Source of the DNA: Fusobacteriota bacterium
GTDB taxonomy: Bacteria; Bacillota; TC1
Reading direction: 5' to 3'
NCBI GenBank assembly: GCA_009773805.1
Contig: WTXA01000001.1
Coordinates: 124,001 to 188,000 of the forward strand
DNA length: 64,000 nt
Positions within the stretch are counted from its first letter, which is position 1. The number at the start of each line of letters is the position of its first letter. This document shows, piece after piece, positions 31,855 through 38,200 of the stretch. The notes under the pieces were generated by a model. It saw nothing but the letters and a program-made list of their open reading frames with translations, was not told the origin of the DNA and ran no database searches. Position numbers and translations under genes: made by a program.

Positions 31855-32988
31855 ATGAAACATACTTTAAAAATTATAATTATGCTAGCCTTCTCATTAT
31901 TAATGGTTGGTTCATATTTTTATGTAGGAAATAATACAGTTAAAGCTGAAACAGAAGTAATTGATAATGGTTTGTACCGCATTAAGAATGCTTATAGTGG
32001 ATTGTATCTAGACATACAAGATGGAAGTAATGCTGATGGGTCTTTAAGTATCCAGGCCCAAAGGGCTGAAAATACTAGTCAAATATTTAGAATTAGCAAA
32101 GAAAATACTTTGAGATATGTTATTAGTGTTGAAAAAAATCTTAAGGTTTTAGAAATATTAGAATTGCCTGATGAGAAAATAATTACACCTATTCAACAAT
32201 CTGACTATTTGAAAAAAGCAAACCAAGAATGGATAATTAGACAACTAAGTGACGGAACTATTGTAATATTAAATTATTTATCAGAAGAAGCCATGAGTGT
32301 AACTGAGGGAGATTTAAACGATGGGGGACTAGTTGTAGCTCTACCCTATATTGGTACTAACAATCAAAAATGGACTTTGGAACCAACTGAAAGAGAAAAA
32401 AATATTATAACTGGACCGATAAATAATAATGAAAAAACAGTTGATAATAAGGATACAAAAGCTGGACTTCAATTTGCTTTCATTTTAGATTCTTTAAATA
32501 ATGCAACAATTATTGAAATGGCTATTGTTGGTATTTTTGTATTAATCATTTTATTTATAGTTCTAGGATATTTATTATATGCTTTTCGTGTTAAACCAAG
32601 ATTCTTTATAAAAGGAAGATTATATTACAAACCTGTTAGTAGAGAAGAGGAAAAATTTGTAAACTATATGGATTTTAAAAGAAAACACAAAAAGAAAATC
32701 ATAATTAGTTTTGATCAAGCTATTAAGAAAGCTGACTTTTTTTTAGGAAGTGGTGCATATGACTATCAAATAGTTATTGAAAATGTAACAGAGCTGAACT
32801 TGCCGAATTTTCTTGAAGGCTATAGATCCTTTAATTTAGATAAAAATCCAATCAAGTTAAGAGCATCTGCGACAGAACCAGGTATTTTAAGTTTTGGAGA
32901 ATTTGTCTATAGCAAACACTTCATAGTTGATGGTAGTAAATTTGAATCTGGGGATATTCTATTTAGATATGTTGAAGATGAAAAATAG
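31855..32988 (+). CDS. Membrane-anchored ricin-type beta-trefoil protein in the Tad operon
   Basis: This 377-residue protein has a signal sequence (residues ~1-28), an extracellular ricin-B-like beta-trefoil (about 37-178), a linker, a transmembrane helix (~221-245) and a ~130-residue cytoplasmic domain without a family name that I recognise. Trefoil marks include GLYRIKNAYSGLYLDI near the start, NQEW in the second repeat and NQKWTL in the third. Such domains usually bind sugars. Operon position suggests a role in Tad pilus attachment, anchoring or sensing; this is inference. ATG 31855 follows AAAGGATGAG. The end overlaps the next gene. Confidence 0.75.
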   Translation: MKHTLKIIIMLAFSLLMVGSYFYVGNNTVKAETEVIDNGLYRIKNAYSGLYLDIQDGSNADGSLSIQAQRAENTSQIFRISKENTLRYVISVEKNLKVLEILELPDEKIITPIQQSDYLKKANQEWIIRQLSDGTIVILNYLSEEAMSVTEGDLNDGGLVVALPYIGTNNQKWTLEPTEREKNIITGPINNNEKTVDNKDTKAGLQFAFILDSLNNATIIEMAIVGIFVLIILFIVLGYLLYAFRVKPRFFIKGRLYYKPVSREEEKFVNYMDFKRKHKKKIIISFDQAIKKADFFLGSGAYDYQIVIENVTELNLPNFLEGYRSFNLDKNPIKLRASATEPGILSFGEFVYSKHFIVDGSKFESGDILFRYVEDEK

Positions 32989-33340
32989 AGTACAGTTGAC
33001 TAGGCTACTAACAATGAAAAATGAGGTTATACTTGAAAACATCAGGCTAGCAGACACTTTTTTAAAAAGATTAATTGGATTGATGGGTAAAAGCAAACTC
33101 AATAGCGATGAAGGTCTAATAATAAGACCTTGTAATAGCATTCATACTTTCTTCATGAAATTCAATATTGATGTTGTTTTTATAGATAGTGATTTTAAAA
33201 TAGTAGATATATATATTGATTTGGCTCCTTGGAAAATTTCGAAAATTTACAAAAATGCTAAATTTGTAATAGAAGGAAAAGCTGGAAGTTTAGCAAAGCT
33301 AAAAAAAGGTAATCAAATAAAAATAGTAAAAAAAGTCTGA
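32978..33340 (+). CDS. DUF192 family protein
   Basis: The core (about residues 15-115) carries the DUF192 pattern, with RLIGLMGK, EGLIIRPCNSIHTFFMKFNIDVVF and a C-terminal FVIEGKAGS segment. The function of the family is unknown. The start is uncertain: ATG 32978 overlaps the lectin gene by 11 bases, and ATG 33014 would give a shorter product starting MKNEVILE. Neither has a strong ribosome site, which fits translational coupling. The stop lies inside the terminator hairpin, closing the Tad operon. No signal peptide is visible with these starts. Confidence 0.75.
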   Translation: MKNRVQLTRLLTMKNEVILENIRLADTFLKRLIGLMGKSKLNSDEGLIIRPCNSIHTFFMKFNIDVVFIDSDFKIVDIYIDLAPWKISKIYKNAKFVIEGKAGSLAKLKKGNQIKIVKKV

Positions 33341-33401: not shown

Positions 33402-33442
33402 TGTTAAAATATATCAAAATATTTATAAGGGGAAATGAAAAC

Positions 33443-34318
33443 ATGTTTAGTATGACTGGCTATGGTAAAGGGATTAAAGAAACAAAAGAAAGAATATATA
33501 CATTAGAACTAAGAGCTGTTAATCATAGATTTCTTGAAGTGAAATATAGACTGCCTAAAGGAATGCTATTTGTTGAAGAAAAAATAGATAAATTTTTAAA
33601 GGCGAATTTCAATAGAGGTTCTTTTTCTGTGTTTTTAAATATTGAGAACAATAAGGAATATAAACAAGATTTTAACATAGATTTTAAATTAGCAGAGGCA
33701 TATTTCAAAGCTGGTCAAAATATAAAAGAACATTTTAAACTTTCATATGATTTATCGTTACAAGACATTATAAGGTATCCTGAAGTTATTTCTTCAAATG
33801 ATAAAGAACTTGATGATGAAGTAATTTGGAACGATATAAAAGAGGCCTTGGAAACTGCCTGTGAGAATGTAAAAGTCATGAGAAAAAATGAAGGTGAAAA
33901 ACTTAAAGGCTTTTTCCAAGAAAGTCTAGAAATAATAATTACTAACATTGAAGAGGTAGACAAATATGCTGACTTTGTTGTAGGAGAATATAAGGCGAAA
34001 CTTCAAGATAGAATCAAGACATTACTCGATGCAGTTCCTGTCAATGAAGATAGAATAGCTTATGAAGTAGCAGCCTTTGCAGACAAGAGCAATATAACAG
34101 AAGAAATAACAAGACTTAACATACATATGACACATTTCAAGGACTATTTTGAAATTGATGAACCAATAGGCAGAAAAATGGATTTTCTAATTCAAGAAAT
34201 GAATAGAGAAATCAACACAATAGGATCAAAATCCAGTTCAACTGATATAGCTGTAATTATAGTTACAGTTAAAAGTGAACTAGAAAAAATAAGAGAACAA
34301 GTACAAAACATTGAATAG
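33443..34318 (+). CDS. yicC: YicC family endoribonuclease
   Basis: This 291-residue protein opens with MFSMTGYGKG, the conserved YicC N-terminus, followed by ELRAVNHRFLEVKYRLP. The C-terminal half has the DUF1732 block with DFLIQEMNREINTIGSKS. YicC proteins are cytoplasmic endoribonucleases involved in RNA turnover. I chose ATG 33443 behind AAGGGG; an upstream TTG at 33401 overlaps the -10 box. Position before gmk and rpoZ is standard in Firmicutes. Confidence 0.93.
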   Translation: MFSMTGYGKGIKETKERIYTLELRAVNHRFLEVKYRLPKGMLFVEEKIDKFLKANFNRGSFSVFLNIENNKEYKQDFNIDFKLAEAYFKAGQNIKEHFKLSYDLSLQDIIRYPEVISSNDKELDDEVIWNDIKEALETACENVKVMRKNEGEKLKGFFQESLEIIITNIEEVDKYADFVVGEYKAKLQDRIKTLLDAVPVNEDRIAYEVAAFADKSNITEEITRLNIHMTHFKDYFEIDEPIGRKMDFLIQEMNREINTIGSKSSSTDIAVIIVTVKSELEKIREQVQNIE

Positions 34319-34332
34319 GAGGTTATGAAATA

Positions 34333-34947
34333 ATGAATGAAAGAAACTTGCTTTTAGTTATCTCAGGACCTTCAGGAGCAGGTAAAGGAACAATCTGTAA
34401 AGCTTTAGTAGAAAAACATCAAAATAATCTTCAATGCTCAATATCAGCGACTAGCAGAGAGGTCCGACCTGGAGAATTTGTTGATAAAACTTATTATTAT
34501 ATAGGAAAAAATAAGTTTTTAGAAAATATAGAAAATGACCAATTTTTAGAATTTGCTGAAGTATATGGTAATTACTATGGAACCTTGATTGAAGAAGTTC
34601 AAAGACTTTTCAAGATGAATGCTGATGTTATTTTAGAAATTGAAATGCAAGGTGCTTTACAAATACGTGAAAAATCTGAGGACGCAGTACTGATTTTTAT
34701 AATGCCACCATCATTTAAGGAATTAAGAGACCGACTCCATAAAAGGAATAGAGATAGAAAAGAAGACATACAAAATAGACTTGATAAAGTATCAAGTGAA
34801 TTAAAATACATAAAAGATTACGATTATATTGTAGTTAATGATAGATTAGAGGATGCTGTAGCGAAAATAGAAGCAATAATAATAGCAGAGAAATGTAAGA
34901 TGAATGAAAAAACTTTTGATATTGGAACATTTATTAAAGATATTTAA
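34333..34947 (+). CDS. gmk: Guanylate kinase
   Basis: Gmk phosphorylates GMP to GDP. The P-loop SGPSGAGKGTI is near residue 11, and the GMP-binding segment SATSREVRPGE near 38 is followed by DKTYYYI. EIEMQGALQI is the family block near 98. At 204 residues the length is normal. ATG 34333 lies behind AGGAGG. The rpoZ gene follows at 34994; a frame extension of rpoZ into gmk exists but is not used. Confidence 0.96.
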   Translation: MNERNLLLVISGPSGAGKGTICKALVEKHQNNLQCSISATSREVRPGEFVDKTYYYIGKNKFLENIENDQFLEFAEVYGNYYGTLIEEVQRLFKMNADVILEIEMQGALQIREKSEDAVLIFIMPPSFKELRDRLHKRNRDRKEDIQNRLDKVSSELKYIKDYDYIVVNDRLEDAVAKIEAIIIAEKCKMNEKTFDIGTFIKDI

Positions 34948-34993: not shown

Positions 34994-35281
34994 ATGACTG
35001 AAAAACTTATAAACATAAGCAAAATTGTAGAAAAAGTAAATAGTAAGTATCTTTTGGTTATGATTGCCGCAAAAAGATCTAGGCAACTATCCTTATTGGA
35101 ACAAAAGGACAAGATTCTTAAAGAAGAACCAGATAAATTAAAGGCTAGAACAGATTTAGATAACGTTGGTTTATTGTCAGAAGAGGAGAAACTAGCTCTG
35201 AAGAGTCACAAACCGATTATAGTAGCACTTGATGAGTTGATGGATGACAAGATTACCTACAGTTTTAAAGAGGAAGAATAA
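34994..35281 (+). CDS. rpoZ: RNA polymerase omega subunit
   Basis: This 95-residue omega subunit stabilises the beta' subunit of RNA polymerase. The conserved block is KYLLVMIAAKRSRQL, followed by a short acidic linker and KPIIVALDELMDDKITY. I chose ATG 34994 with AAGGAG eight bases ahead. The upstream ATG at 34904 overlaps gmk and would add 30 basic residues not typical of omega. It ends two bases before the coaBC-like gene, the normal gmk-rpoZ-coaBC order. Confidence 0.93.
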   Translation: MTEKLINISKIVEKVNSKYLLVMIAAKRSRQLSLLEQKDKILKEEPDKLKARTDLDNVGLLSEEEKLALKSHKPIIVALDELMDDKITYSFKEEE

Positions 35282-35283
35282 AA

Positions 35284-36264
35284 ATGAATGGCCAGAAGAT
35301 CCTTTTAGGTATCGTAGAGGATAAAGAAGCCTTTCTTATGGTGCAATTAGCCTATAGACTTAGAGAAATAGGTTATGATGCATACATTTTCAGGACTGAA
35401 ATTAGTGATAACTATATACCATTAGCCTATATGGAAGATTTATTAACATATAAAATAAATGGTTGGGATTTGATTGTTATTGGTCCTGGAAATGAAGACA
35501 TATTTAGATACAATTCAGATATAGGGTTAAAGAACTTAGTTGAATCAACTGATATAGAAGTGATTTTCGTTGAAGAACTTGATAATCTGGAATTAATAAT
35601 AGAAAAAATCCAAGTTAAAACAAAAGGATACGTTATGCAAGAGTATTCTTTTTTATTTACACTTGGGTATTTTAATGAGCATTTAACTAATAATCATTTT
35701 ATAGGAACCTACAGGAATGATAAACTAATATATGGACTAATAAAGACTTTAGTTTTATCAGGTGCAAACGTAAGCATAATTGCTTCTGATAATATTGGAA
35801 GAGTAAGTTATGCAGAGGACGTAATATATGTTAAGAATCAAAATGAACTAGAAATCGTACTTAATTCTAAATTTTTTAAATATGATTTTGTTATAAATGC
35901 TATAAACATACCAAGATTTGGACTAACCAAAGGTGAAAGATTTAAAATTGAGTATCAGAGATATTTTGCTGAATTCGATGAAAAATTTCTTCCTTTCGTT
36001 GATGTTGGACTATCATCTAATAACCAATTAATAATTGAAGTTATAAATGGTAGTATTGATAATGAAGATGCAATTAAATATTTATTTGAAAATTCATGTG
36101 TGAATTTAGTTATGTTAAGTGAAATAGATAAATCAAACAATGATTTCAAACCATTCGTAAAATTGATAAATAGAGATGGTAGTGCTGATATTATTGCTTT
36201 TAAAGATAATAAAATAATGTATAAAGAGCTTATAAATGAACTTAAAGCTAAAATAGAAGGATAG
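35284..36264 (+). CDS. Degenerate CoaBC-like protein
   Basis: This 326-residue protein sits exactly where coaBC normally follows gmk-rpoZ. Its outline matches CoaBC: an N-terminal flavoprotein-like Rossmann part (KILLGIVEDKEAFLMVQLAYRL; DLIVIGPGNEDIF where the PASANT-type motif should be) and a second part (LVLSGANVSIIAS; VIYVKNQNELEIVL; VINAINIPRF where AAVADF is expected; NLVMLSEIDKSNNDF where the NDV motif lies). It is shorter than the usual ~400 and lacks the catalytic His and Lys contexts. Either it no longer makes coenzyme A precursors or it is a very divergent enzyme. ATG 35284 is clear from spacing. The homology is by motif order only. Confidence 0.6.
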   Translation: MNGQKILLGIVEDKEAFLMVQLAYRLREIGYDAYIFRTEISDNYIPLAYMEDLLTYKINGWDLIVIGPGNEDIFRYNSDIGLKNLVESTDIEVIFVEELDNLELIIEKIQVKTKGYVMQEYSFLFTLGYFNEHLTNNHFIGTYRNDKLIYGLIKTLVLSGANVSIIASDNIGRVSYAEDVIYVKNQNELEIVLNSKFFKYDFVINAINIPRFGLTKGERFKIEYQRYFAEFDEKFLPFVDVGLSSNNQLIIEVINGSIDNEDAIKYLFENSCVNLVMLSEIDKSNNDFKPFVKLINRDGSADIIAFKDNKIMYKELINELKAKIEG

Positions 36265-36276
36265 GAGAATTGCATA

Positions 36277-37455
36277 ATGAGAAAATTTTTTACTTCAGAA
36301 TCAGTAACGGAGGGACATCCAGATAAGATATGTGATCAAATTTCTGATGCTGTTTTAGATGCTATTTTAAAAGAAGATCCAAATGGAAGAGTTGCCTGCG
36401 AAACTTTTGTAACAACAGGATTAGTTGTAGTTGCAGGAGAAATTTCTACAAAATGCTACATTGATATTCAAAAAATTGTTAGAGATACAGTGAGAAATAT
36501 TGGATACACAAGAGCAAAATATGGTTTTGATGCTGATACTTGTGGCGTTATGGTAGCTTTAGATGAACAATCAGCGGATATAGCTCTTGGTGTTGATGTT
36601 TCAGAAGAGGGTAAAAAGGGTGAATACAGCCTTGAAGATGCAATCGGAGCTGGTGACCAAGGTATGATGTTTGGATATGCAACAAATGAAACAAAAGAAC
36701 TTATGCCGGCACCAATTATGTACGCCCATAAGCTAGCCAAAAAATTAGCTGAAGTTAGAAAAGATGGCACAGTAAATTACCTTAGACCTGATGGTAAAAC
36801 TCAAGTAACTTTTGAATACGAAGACCATAAACCTATTAGAATTGAAGCTATAGTTATTTCAACCCAACATAATCCAGAAACAACTCAAGAAACTATCTAT
36901 AATGATATGATTGAGAAAGTAATAAAAGCAGTAATTCCAAATGAATTATTAGATGAAAATACAAAGTATCATATTAATCCAACAGGTAGATTTGTAATTG
37001 GAGGTCCATTAGGAGATACAGGTTTAACTGGTCGTAAAATAATAGTAGATACATATGGTGGAGCTGCTGCTCATGGTGGTGGTGCTTTTAGTGGAAAAGA
37101 CCCAACTAAAGTAGATAGATCAGCTGCTTATGCTGCTAGATATATTGCTAAAAACATAGTAGCCGCTGGCCTTGCTGATAGATGTGAAATTCAACTATCC
37201 TACGCTATTGGTATTGCTAAACCTATATCAGTATTTGTTGATACTTATGAAACCGGTAAGATTCCAGATGATAAGCTTTGTGATATAGTAAATGAGAATT
37301 TTGATTTAAAACCTGCTGCAATAATTAGACATTTTGATCTAAGAAGACCAATCTATAGAAATATAGCTGCTTATGGTCATTTTGGAAGAACTGAATTAGA
37401 CTTACCATGGGAAAAAACTGATAAAGCAGAAGAGTTAGCTAAGTACTTAAACTAA
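36277..37455 (+). CDS. metK: S-adenosylmethionine synthetase
   Basis: MetK makes S-adenosylmethionine from methionine and ATP. The conserved blocks [53 protein letters not shown] and [16 protein letters not shown] are intact. At 392 residues length and motifs are normal. ATG 36277 follows AGGAG. Only twelve bases separate it from the upstream gene, so no SAM riboswitch can lie here; its regulation is at the level of the upstream transcript. Confidence 0.97.
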
Positions 37456-37459
37456 TGAG

Positions 37460-38200
37460 GTGATTCAAATTAGATATCAAGGTAGAAACATTTTTACAAA
37501 TTCTCTATCTACAACCAAATATCAACTTGTAGGACAAGAAATATCTGTAAGGTCAGGACTTGGAAAATATGATAAGGAAATCATATTACCATTTTATTTG
37601 GTTAAAGAAAGAATAATGACTTCTTTATCGGAAATAATATTAGTTGGTGCTGACAGGCCATATTATGGTGTGGTCAATATTTTTACTGAAGATATAAATT
37701 CCGCTCAAGAGTTAGTGAGATGTATGAAAAGTGTTGGAGCAGAATTGGAATTGGAGCTAGATTATTCAATTGCATTAGTTAAGAATTCTTCAACTTCCTT
37801 CATTATCAATTTGTATAGTACAGTAAATAAAGAAAAGTTGAAAGTGCAAACAGCAAGAGAAAGTATATGGATATACTTTCTAAGTCTTCGAGAAGATAGT
37901 CTTGGTATAGCTAAAGATAATTTTTTTAACTTAGAATTTATTAAGGATATAGCTGAATCACAGGGTATTTTGGAAAGTTATCTTCTAAAAGACGAGAGTT
38001 TTTCTCAAGGGATATCTAACATGTTAGTTGGTACAAATACTTTTCATGTAGAAAGAAATCATAATTTAGACGTTTTAAAGAAGTATAGAAGAGGCTCAGG
38101 AATGATTGTACTTACACCCTTTAAGTTAAGTAAAATAGATGAAAAAAATGTAGAAATACATGAGATGGGAAGTTTATTTACAAAAAGTTTCAAATATTAA
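37460..38200 (+). CDS. Unknown protein, possibly AIR-synthase-like
   Basis: I do not recognise a firm family for this 246-residue product. The segment around residues 40-80 (EIILPFYLVKERI; GADRPYYGVVNIF) resembles the strand-helix pattern of AIR synthase-fold proteins such as HypE or ThiL, and GSGMIVLTPF near 215 fits their C-terminal domain, but the ATP-binding Asp and Gly motifs are missing. The start is unusual: GTG 37460 overlaps the GAGGTGA ribosome site, while ATT 37469 sits at the normal distance from it. No membrane segment is seen. It is four bases after metK and ends at a bidirectional terminator. Confidence 0.55.
   Translation: MIQIRYQGRNIFTNSLSTTKYQLVGQEISVRSGLGKYDKEIILPFYLVKERIMTSLSEIILVGADRPYYGVVNIFTEDINSAQELVRCMKSVGAELELELDYSIALVKNSSTSFIINLYSTVNKEKLKVQTARESIWIYFLSLREDSLGIAKDNFFNLEFIKDIAESQGILESYLLKDESFSQGISNMLVGTNTFHVERNHNLDVLKKYRRGSGMIVLTPFKLSKIDEKNVEIHEMGSLFTKSFKY

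Follow-up and report, generated by a model that had tools for sequence, protein, structure and literature searches.

A CoaBC-like protein lacking the catalytic residues of CoaBC is conserved between rpoZ and metK in a family of Bacillota

We consider it likely that the gene between rpoZ and metK in the window, the whole stretch of 64,000 nucleotides analysed here, from the genome labelled G000, encodes a catalytically dead and neofunctionalized descendant of CoaBC, turned to ligand binding or regulation. An earlier note on this DNA had described the order yicC-gmk-rpoZ-coaBC with an odd fourth gene, and the window does read yicC-gmk-rpoZ-X-metK, where X, the gene in the position between rpoZ and metK (the slot), is an intact open reading frame with an ATG start, placed 2 bp after the end of rpoZ (35281) and 12 bp before the start of metK (36277). 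The other peculiarities listed in that note are equally real: the slot protein is short (326 aa vs about 390-415 aa in canonical CoaBC of the same class), and in place of PASANT- and AAVADF-like motifs it carries IGPGNEDIF (residues 66-74, where CoaC has PA(S/T)ANT) and NAINIPRF (residues 205-212). The features of the locus are as follows, all on the forward strand.

33440..34318, +, yicC (endoribonuclease YicC-like), context; start placed at MFSMTG
34333..34947, +, gmk (guanylate kinase), context
34994..35281, +, rpoZ (RNA polymerase omega), context; start placed at MTEKL
35284..36264, +, CoaBC-like slot protein, 326 aa; CoaC-like half truncated (about residues 1-112), CoaB-like half full-length (about residues 116-326), catalytic residues lost
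35482..35508, +, GPGNEDIFR, residues 67-75, at the place of CoaC PA(S/T)ANT; Pro68 kept, other residues changed
35695..35697, +, His138, at the CoaB arginine column (Arg204 of the G008 protein, by correspondence Arg207 in M. smegmatis); invariant in the six slot proteins
35896..35919, +, NAINIPRF, residues 205-212, at the CoaB AAAVADF motif; metal-coordinating Asp replaced by the invariant Arg211
35950..35997, +, EYQRYFAEFDEKFLPF, residues 223-238; best-conserved segment of the slot family, located where CoaB has its CTP-binding K-X-K-K loop, exact register uncertain
36277..37455, +, metK (S-adenosylmethionine synthetase), context; follows coaBC in the sister family f2 as well

Position and homology of the slot protein

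The window's class is represented in our collection by 10 genomes in two families, f1, to which the window belongs, and its sister f2; f1 comprises six genomes, G000 and G002 to G005 from one genus and G001 from another. The slot gene is intact between rpoZ and metK in all six, with 34-71% identity among the proteins. In f2 the same slot, in the order yicC-remA-gmk-(rpoZ)-coaBC-metK, holds a full canonical CoaBC; thus the slot proteins, which lie after rpoZ as CoaBC does, are positional orthologues of CoaBC. Among 398 Bacillota genomes sampled over the phylum we found no member of the slot family outside f1, the few weak matches there being ordinary CoaBCs of 408-460 aa.

Direct sequence comparison recovers little of this relationship. 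No Pfam model matches the slot protein, DFP (PF04127) and Flavoprotein (PF02441) included, and the curated CoaBC model of NCBIfam (TIGR00521) gives 14.3 bits (E 0.015), far below its cut-off of 219.7. BLASTP of the slot protein against the CoaBC encoded elsewhere in G000 yields E=2e-4 for the pair. The profile comparison with CoaB and CoaC that the earlier note had called for is more telling: with hhalign, a profile of the six orthologues matches CoaBC over both halves at 96.2% (E 2e-9), and 35 canonical CoaBC sequences at 97.4% (E 1.4e-11), 315-320 columns of the slot profile being aligned, and its CoaB half matches the CoaB structure 5int at E 0.009. The profile matches, together with same-place orthologues in every f1 genome, put homology between slot protein and CoaBC beyond chance, though it is remote. 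An AlphaFold model built from two input sequences (pLDDT 42) has an uninformative fold. In the tree, the slot branch measures about five changes per column and leaves the family unplaceable, so that orthology to CoaBC rests on gene order. With CoaBC (Dfp; TIGR00521 / PF02441 + PF04127) the slot protein therefore shares the two-half architecture, the overall fold as read from profile alignment and the rpoZ-metK position; it departs from CoaBC in a CoaC half some 60-75 residues shorter and in the residues considered below.

Loss of the catalytic residues

As reference we took 76 columns, each at least 95% conserved in canonical CoaBC and numbered from the G008 protein. In the slot proteins 15 of these columns are deleted, 47 are changed and 14 are kept, the last consisting largely of Gly, Thr, Pro and Asp with structural roles. 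The deleted columns include H73, P120, M122, N123, L154, A155, C156 and G157; the segments missing from the CoaC half hold its catalytic residues, namely the His (H73), the PAMN (PXMN) motif (P120, M122, N123) and the substrate-clamp Cys (C156, in LACG). The CoaB half is altered by substitution: R204 is replaced by His138, N208 by Thr142 and D277 by Arg211, and the SSGK and GFAAE loops are changed. In the K-X-K-K loop K287 is deleted and K289 replaced by R215, with K290 aligned to K216 in an uncertain register. In M. smegmatis CoaB, Arg207 and Asp281 (the equivalents of R204 and D277) and the K-X-K-K loop have been tied to the second reaction step, the metal and CTP (PMC7794376). With the CoaC residues deleted and the CTP and metal residues of CoaB replaced, both activities should be gone from the slot protein, and the same columns lend support to the earlier proposal that CoaBC activity has been lost at this locus.

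CoaBC and CoaX elsewhere in the family

Another CoaBC was one of the outlets proposed in the earlier note for a cell with such a locus, and a search of the genome finds one. A canonical CoaBC (438 bits) lies at C1:564151-565314 of G000, in a cluster coaBC-panB-panC-panD-coaX that adds a second coaX and is placed between pdxT/nrdDG and ribH; the window's cell is therefore not CoaBC-deficient. G004 has the same cluster. In the tree, the pan-cluster CoaBC of f1 stands apart from the CoaBC of f2, with no firm support for placement elsewhere.

Two relatives have no CoaBC. In G005 (98% complete, all 1.588 Mb read) coaBC, panB, panC and panD are absent from the whole genome; the pdxT-nrdG-nrdD-ribH locus lies inside one 462-kb contig, and the cluster has been deleted from it, leaving as a scar (C15:113800-115100) a stub of the second coaX, its C-terminal 77 residues, between nrdD and ribH. 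In G003 (94% complete; about half was read, and the remainder was covered by HMM searches) some 0.8 kb separates pdxT from ribH within a 144-kb contig, this interval holds no recognisable trace of the cluster, and whole-genome HMM searches gave no CoaBC or DFP match. Both genomes have retained CoaD and CoaE together with a single CoaX-like kinase. A 198-aa flavoprotein of G005 and G000 was considered as a stand-alone CoaC and rejected, being UbiX beside UbiD; no other CoaC-like flavoprotein was found in G005. G001, where a coaX-coaBC pair with several breaks looked pseudogene-like, was not counted as a loss, because its assembly also breaks mutS2 and other genes and the breaks resemble indels, with neighbouring frames coding. 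Numerous genes on contig C1 of that genome are in fragments (mutS2 in five pieces, coaBC, the second coaX, ABC genes), a state that may reflect indel errors of the assembly or a decaying genome, and the broken coaBC may itself be an assembly error. Beyond f1, 13 of the 119 sampled Bacillota have no CoaBC over the cut-off (G018, G024, G026, G028, G038, G069, G070, G076, G079, G080, G107, G108 and G115), nine of them being without CoaX as well.

A gene set of PanK, CoaD and CoaE without CoaBC corresponds to the predicted pantetheine-auxotroph (Apn) variant (PMC6593275). G005 and G003, with one CoaX-like kinase, CoaD, CoaE and no CoaBC, have precisely that set, unlike G000 with its full second CoaBC. 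Relatives without the coaBC-pan cluster must obtain 4'-phosphopantetheine by salvage, and their gene content suggests that pantetheine is salvaged by way of an altered type III kinase: it would probably be imported, phosphorylated by the CoaX-like protein and passed on to CoaD and CoaE. Thus, of the pantetheine uptake raised in the earlier note, the part that stands concerns G005 and G003, where it is the likely state; it does not fit G000, which makes its CoA with the canonical CoaBC of the panBCD-coaX cluster.

The kinase in question, CoaX#1 (PF03309; C4:63751-64359 in G000), is a full-length PanK-III homologue common to all six f1 genomes, and in the three of them whose context was read it adjoins a gene for an ECF S-component (PF12822). 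The Arg that follows the second Asp in PanK-III has a role in pantothenate binding. In all six CoaX#1 proteins Leu110 replaces this Arg and Asn129 replaces Asp129, so that the three Asp and the Arg of PanK-III are incompletely present, though the first Asp and Asp109 are kept; these two substitutions set CoaX#1 apart from type III pantothenate kinases (CoaX, PF03309). The Asp-Arg pair, on the other hand, is kept in the CoaX of f2, in the second CoaX of f1 and in all seven CoaX compared from CoaBC-positive Bacillota. Four of the 13 other CoaBC-less Bacillota have CoaX: in this small sample Asp-Leu recurs in G026 and in one of the two copies of G108, each beside an ECF S-component-like gene, and the pair reads Asn-Ile in G076 and Asp-Arg in G080. 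The CoaX#1 proteins of f1 group weakly with the G026 and G108 forms (53/78), which leaves room for one or two origins of Asp-Leu; the ECF neighbour is not specific, since an ECF S-component also adjoins normal CoaX in G015 and G034.

Use of pantetheine is known for CoaA, and the CoaX of B. subtilis and of P. aeruginosa are unable to use pantetheine/pantethine (PMC11487621, PMC12570885); no way of phosphorylating pantetheine is known for bacteria that lack CoaBC and have a type III kinase alone. The pantetheine shunt as known runs through CoaA (PanK-I), whereas the kinase found in the f1 relatives is a changed CoaX. Searches for CoaA gave no match above the cut-off in any f1 genome, a CoaA-like match in G005 having been rejected as a uridine-kinase-like protein, and CoaX#1 is the sole candidate pantetheine kinase found in G005 and G003 by searches for CoaA and CoaX. 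The Asp-Leu CoaX-like kinases of f1, G026 and G108 are candidate pantetheine kinases, and a change from Asp-Arg to Asp-Leu at one position, found in f1 and in two other CoaBC-less genomes, makes them directly testable. The change of Asp129 to Asn could mean that CoaX#1 is inactive rather than re-specified.

Conservation and possible role of the slot protein

The slot gene is not decaying but is under purifying selection. Among the four closest species its dN/dS is 0.12-0.23 at a dS of 0.8-1.2, and it evolves faster than its neighbours gmk, yicC and metK (0.03-0.12). Invariant throughout the family are His138, Pro210-Arg211-Phe212, Glu223-Tyr224, Glu230 and Leu236-Pro237-Phe238, and the family has conserved motifs of its own, IPRF and EYQ.Y.AE.EE.YLPF. 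Its most conserved part (EYQRYFAEFDEKFLPF) is the region equivalent to the CTP-binding flap of CoaB, and this former flap looks like a new binding site. Across the protein, the invariant columns show no significant excess of active-site-equivalent ones (Fisher p=0.17), and a rebuilt pocket is thus only suggested, by single residues such as His138 and Arg211.

Conservation and purifying selection across six species, in a protein devoid of the catalytic residues, are best accounted for by neofunctionalization, one of the outcomes foreseen in the earlier note. A special case of it would have the slot protein act as a non-catalytic subunit or regulator of CoaX#1, CoaD or the second CoaBC. Yeast Hal3 offers an analogy, as this relative of PPCDC regulates the phosphatase Ppz1 (PMC6168597) and would likewise be a homologue of CoA biosynthesis recruited to a non-enzymatic role; however, Hal3 is a eukaryotic, CoaC-type regulator of Ppz1, whereas the slot protein has both halves and it is mainly the CoaB half that is intact. 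All six f1 genomes carry the slot protein together with the altered CoaX#1, which would suit such a partnership, but the slot gene is adjacent to neither coaX nor coaD, and in G005 and G003 there is no CoaBC to serve as partner; we regard this narrower version as unlikely.

If the slot protein were a divergent enzyme that had kept CoaBC or CoaB activity, this would account for the survival of G005 and G003, which lack a canonical CoaBC yet have retained CoaX, CoaD and CoaE; the full length of the CoaB half agrees with this reading. Nevertheless, it is very improbable: the CoaC residues are deleted and G005 offers UbiX as its only CoaC-like protein, the Arg, Asn and Asp, the SSGK loop and GFAAE of CoaB are changed and at least one lysine of K-X-K-K is lost, and the slot gene has diverged to the same degree in G000 and G004, both of which have a normal CoaBC. 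That another CoaBC-like gene of different descent replaced the native one in the same position would agree with the failure of the tree to place the long slot branch; we give this little credence, because exchange of the native gene in the rpoZ-metK slot for a remote paralogue takes more events than divergence in place and the 398 Bacillota hold no closer relative. Least credible of all is a decaying pseudogene whose reading frame survives solely through its place in the operon, for the lost catalytic residues and the rate above that of the neighbours are set against a gene intact in six of six genomes and two genera, a dN/dS that already disfavours decay, and motifs of its own.

Overall, we suggest that the slot gene descends, by position, from the lineage's native coaBC and has been retained for a non-catalytic role. 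In the ancestor of f1 the phosphopantothenoylcysteine synthetase (CoaB) and decarboxylase (CoaC) activities would have been lost at the slot, as the CoaC half was cut by some 60-75 residues, catalytic His, PAMN and substrate-clamp Cys among them, and the CoaB half retained its fold with a rewritten CTP and metal site. The gene would then have been kept as an intact, selected member of the operon. The putative role of its product in ligand binding or regulation would stem from the nucleotide/phosphopantothenate site of CoaB, and the protein possibly couples the nucleotide and SAM operon (gmk-rpoZ-metK) to CoA-precursor status. If so, an essential enzyme found almost universally has lost its chemistry without leaving its locus and has been retained family-wide for another purpose, a clean natural case of neofunctionalization missed by sequence annotation. 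A wider proposal, which we advance tentatively and do not favour, is that both native early-CoA enzymes were re-specified in f1, CoaBC giving rise to a regulator without catalysis whose CoaB pocket has been rebuilt, and CoaX turning into a pantetheine kinase via the loss of the Arg after its catalytic Asp; were it true, type III pantetheine kinases would have their missing signature in the Arg-to-Leu change, which recurs in two other CoaBC-less Bacillota.

Two further genes of the window deserve mention. The gene 3' of metK (37460-38200, 246 aa) has no Pfam or NCBIfam match; degeneration was considered here too and rejected, as the f2 counterpart (L091:7804-8532, 23% identity) also matches no family, which points to an uncharacterised shared gene linked to metK. 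Upstream of yicC, at 31855-33340, a 377-aa gene that overlaps a 137-aa open reading frame shows ricin-type-like repeats by eye and a membrane segment; it lies downstream of tad/type II secretion-like genes and is conserved in L002.
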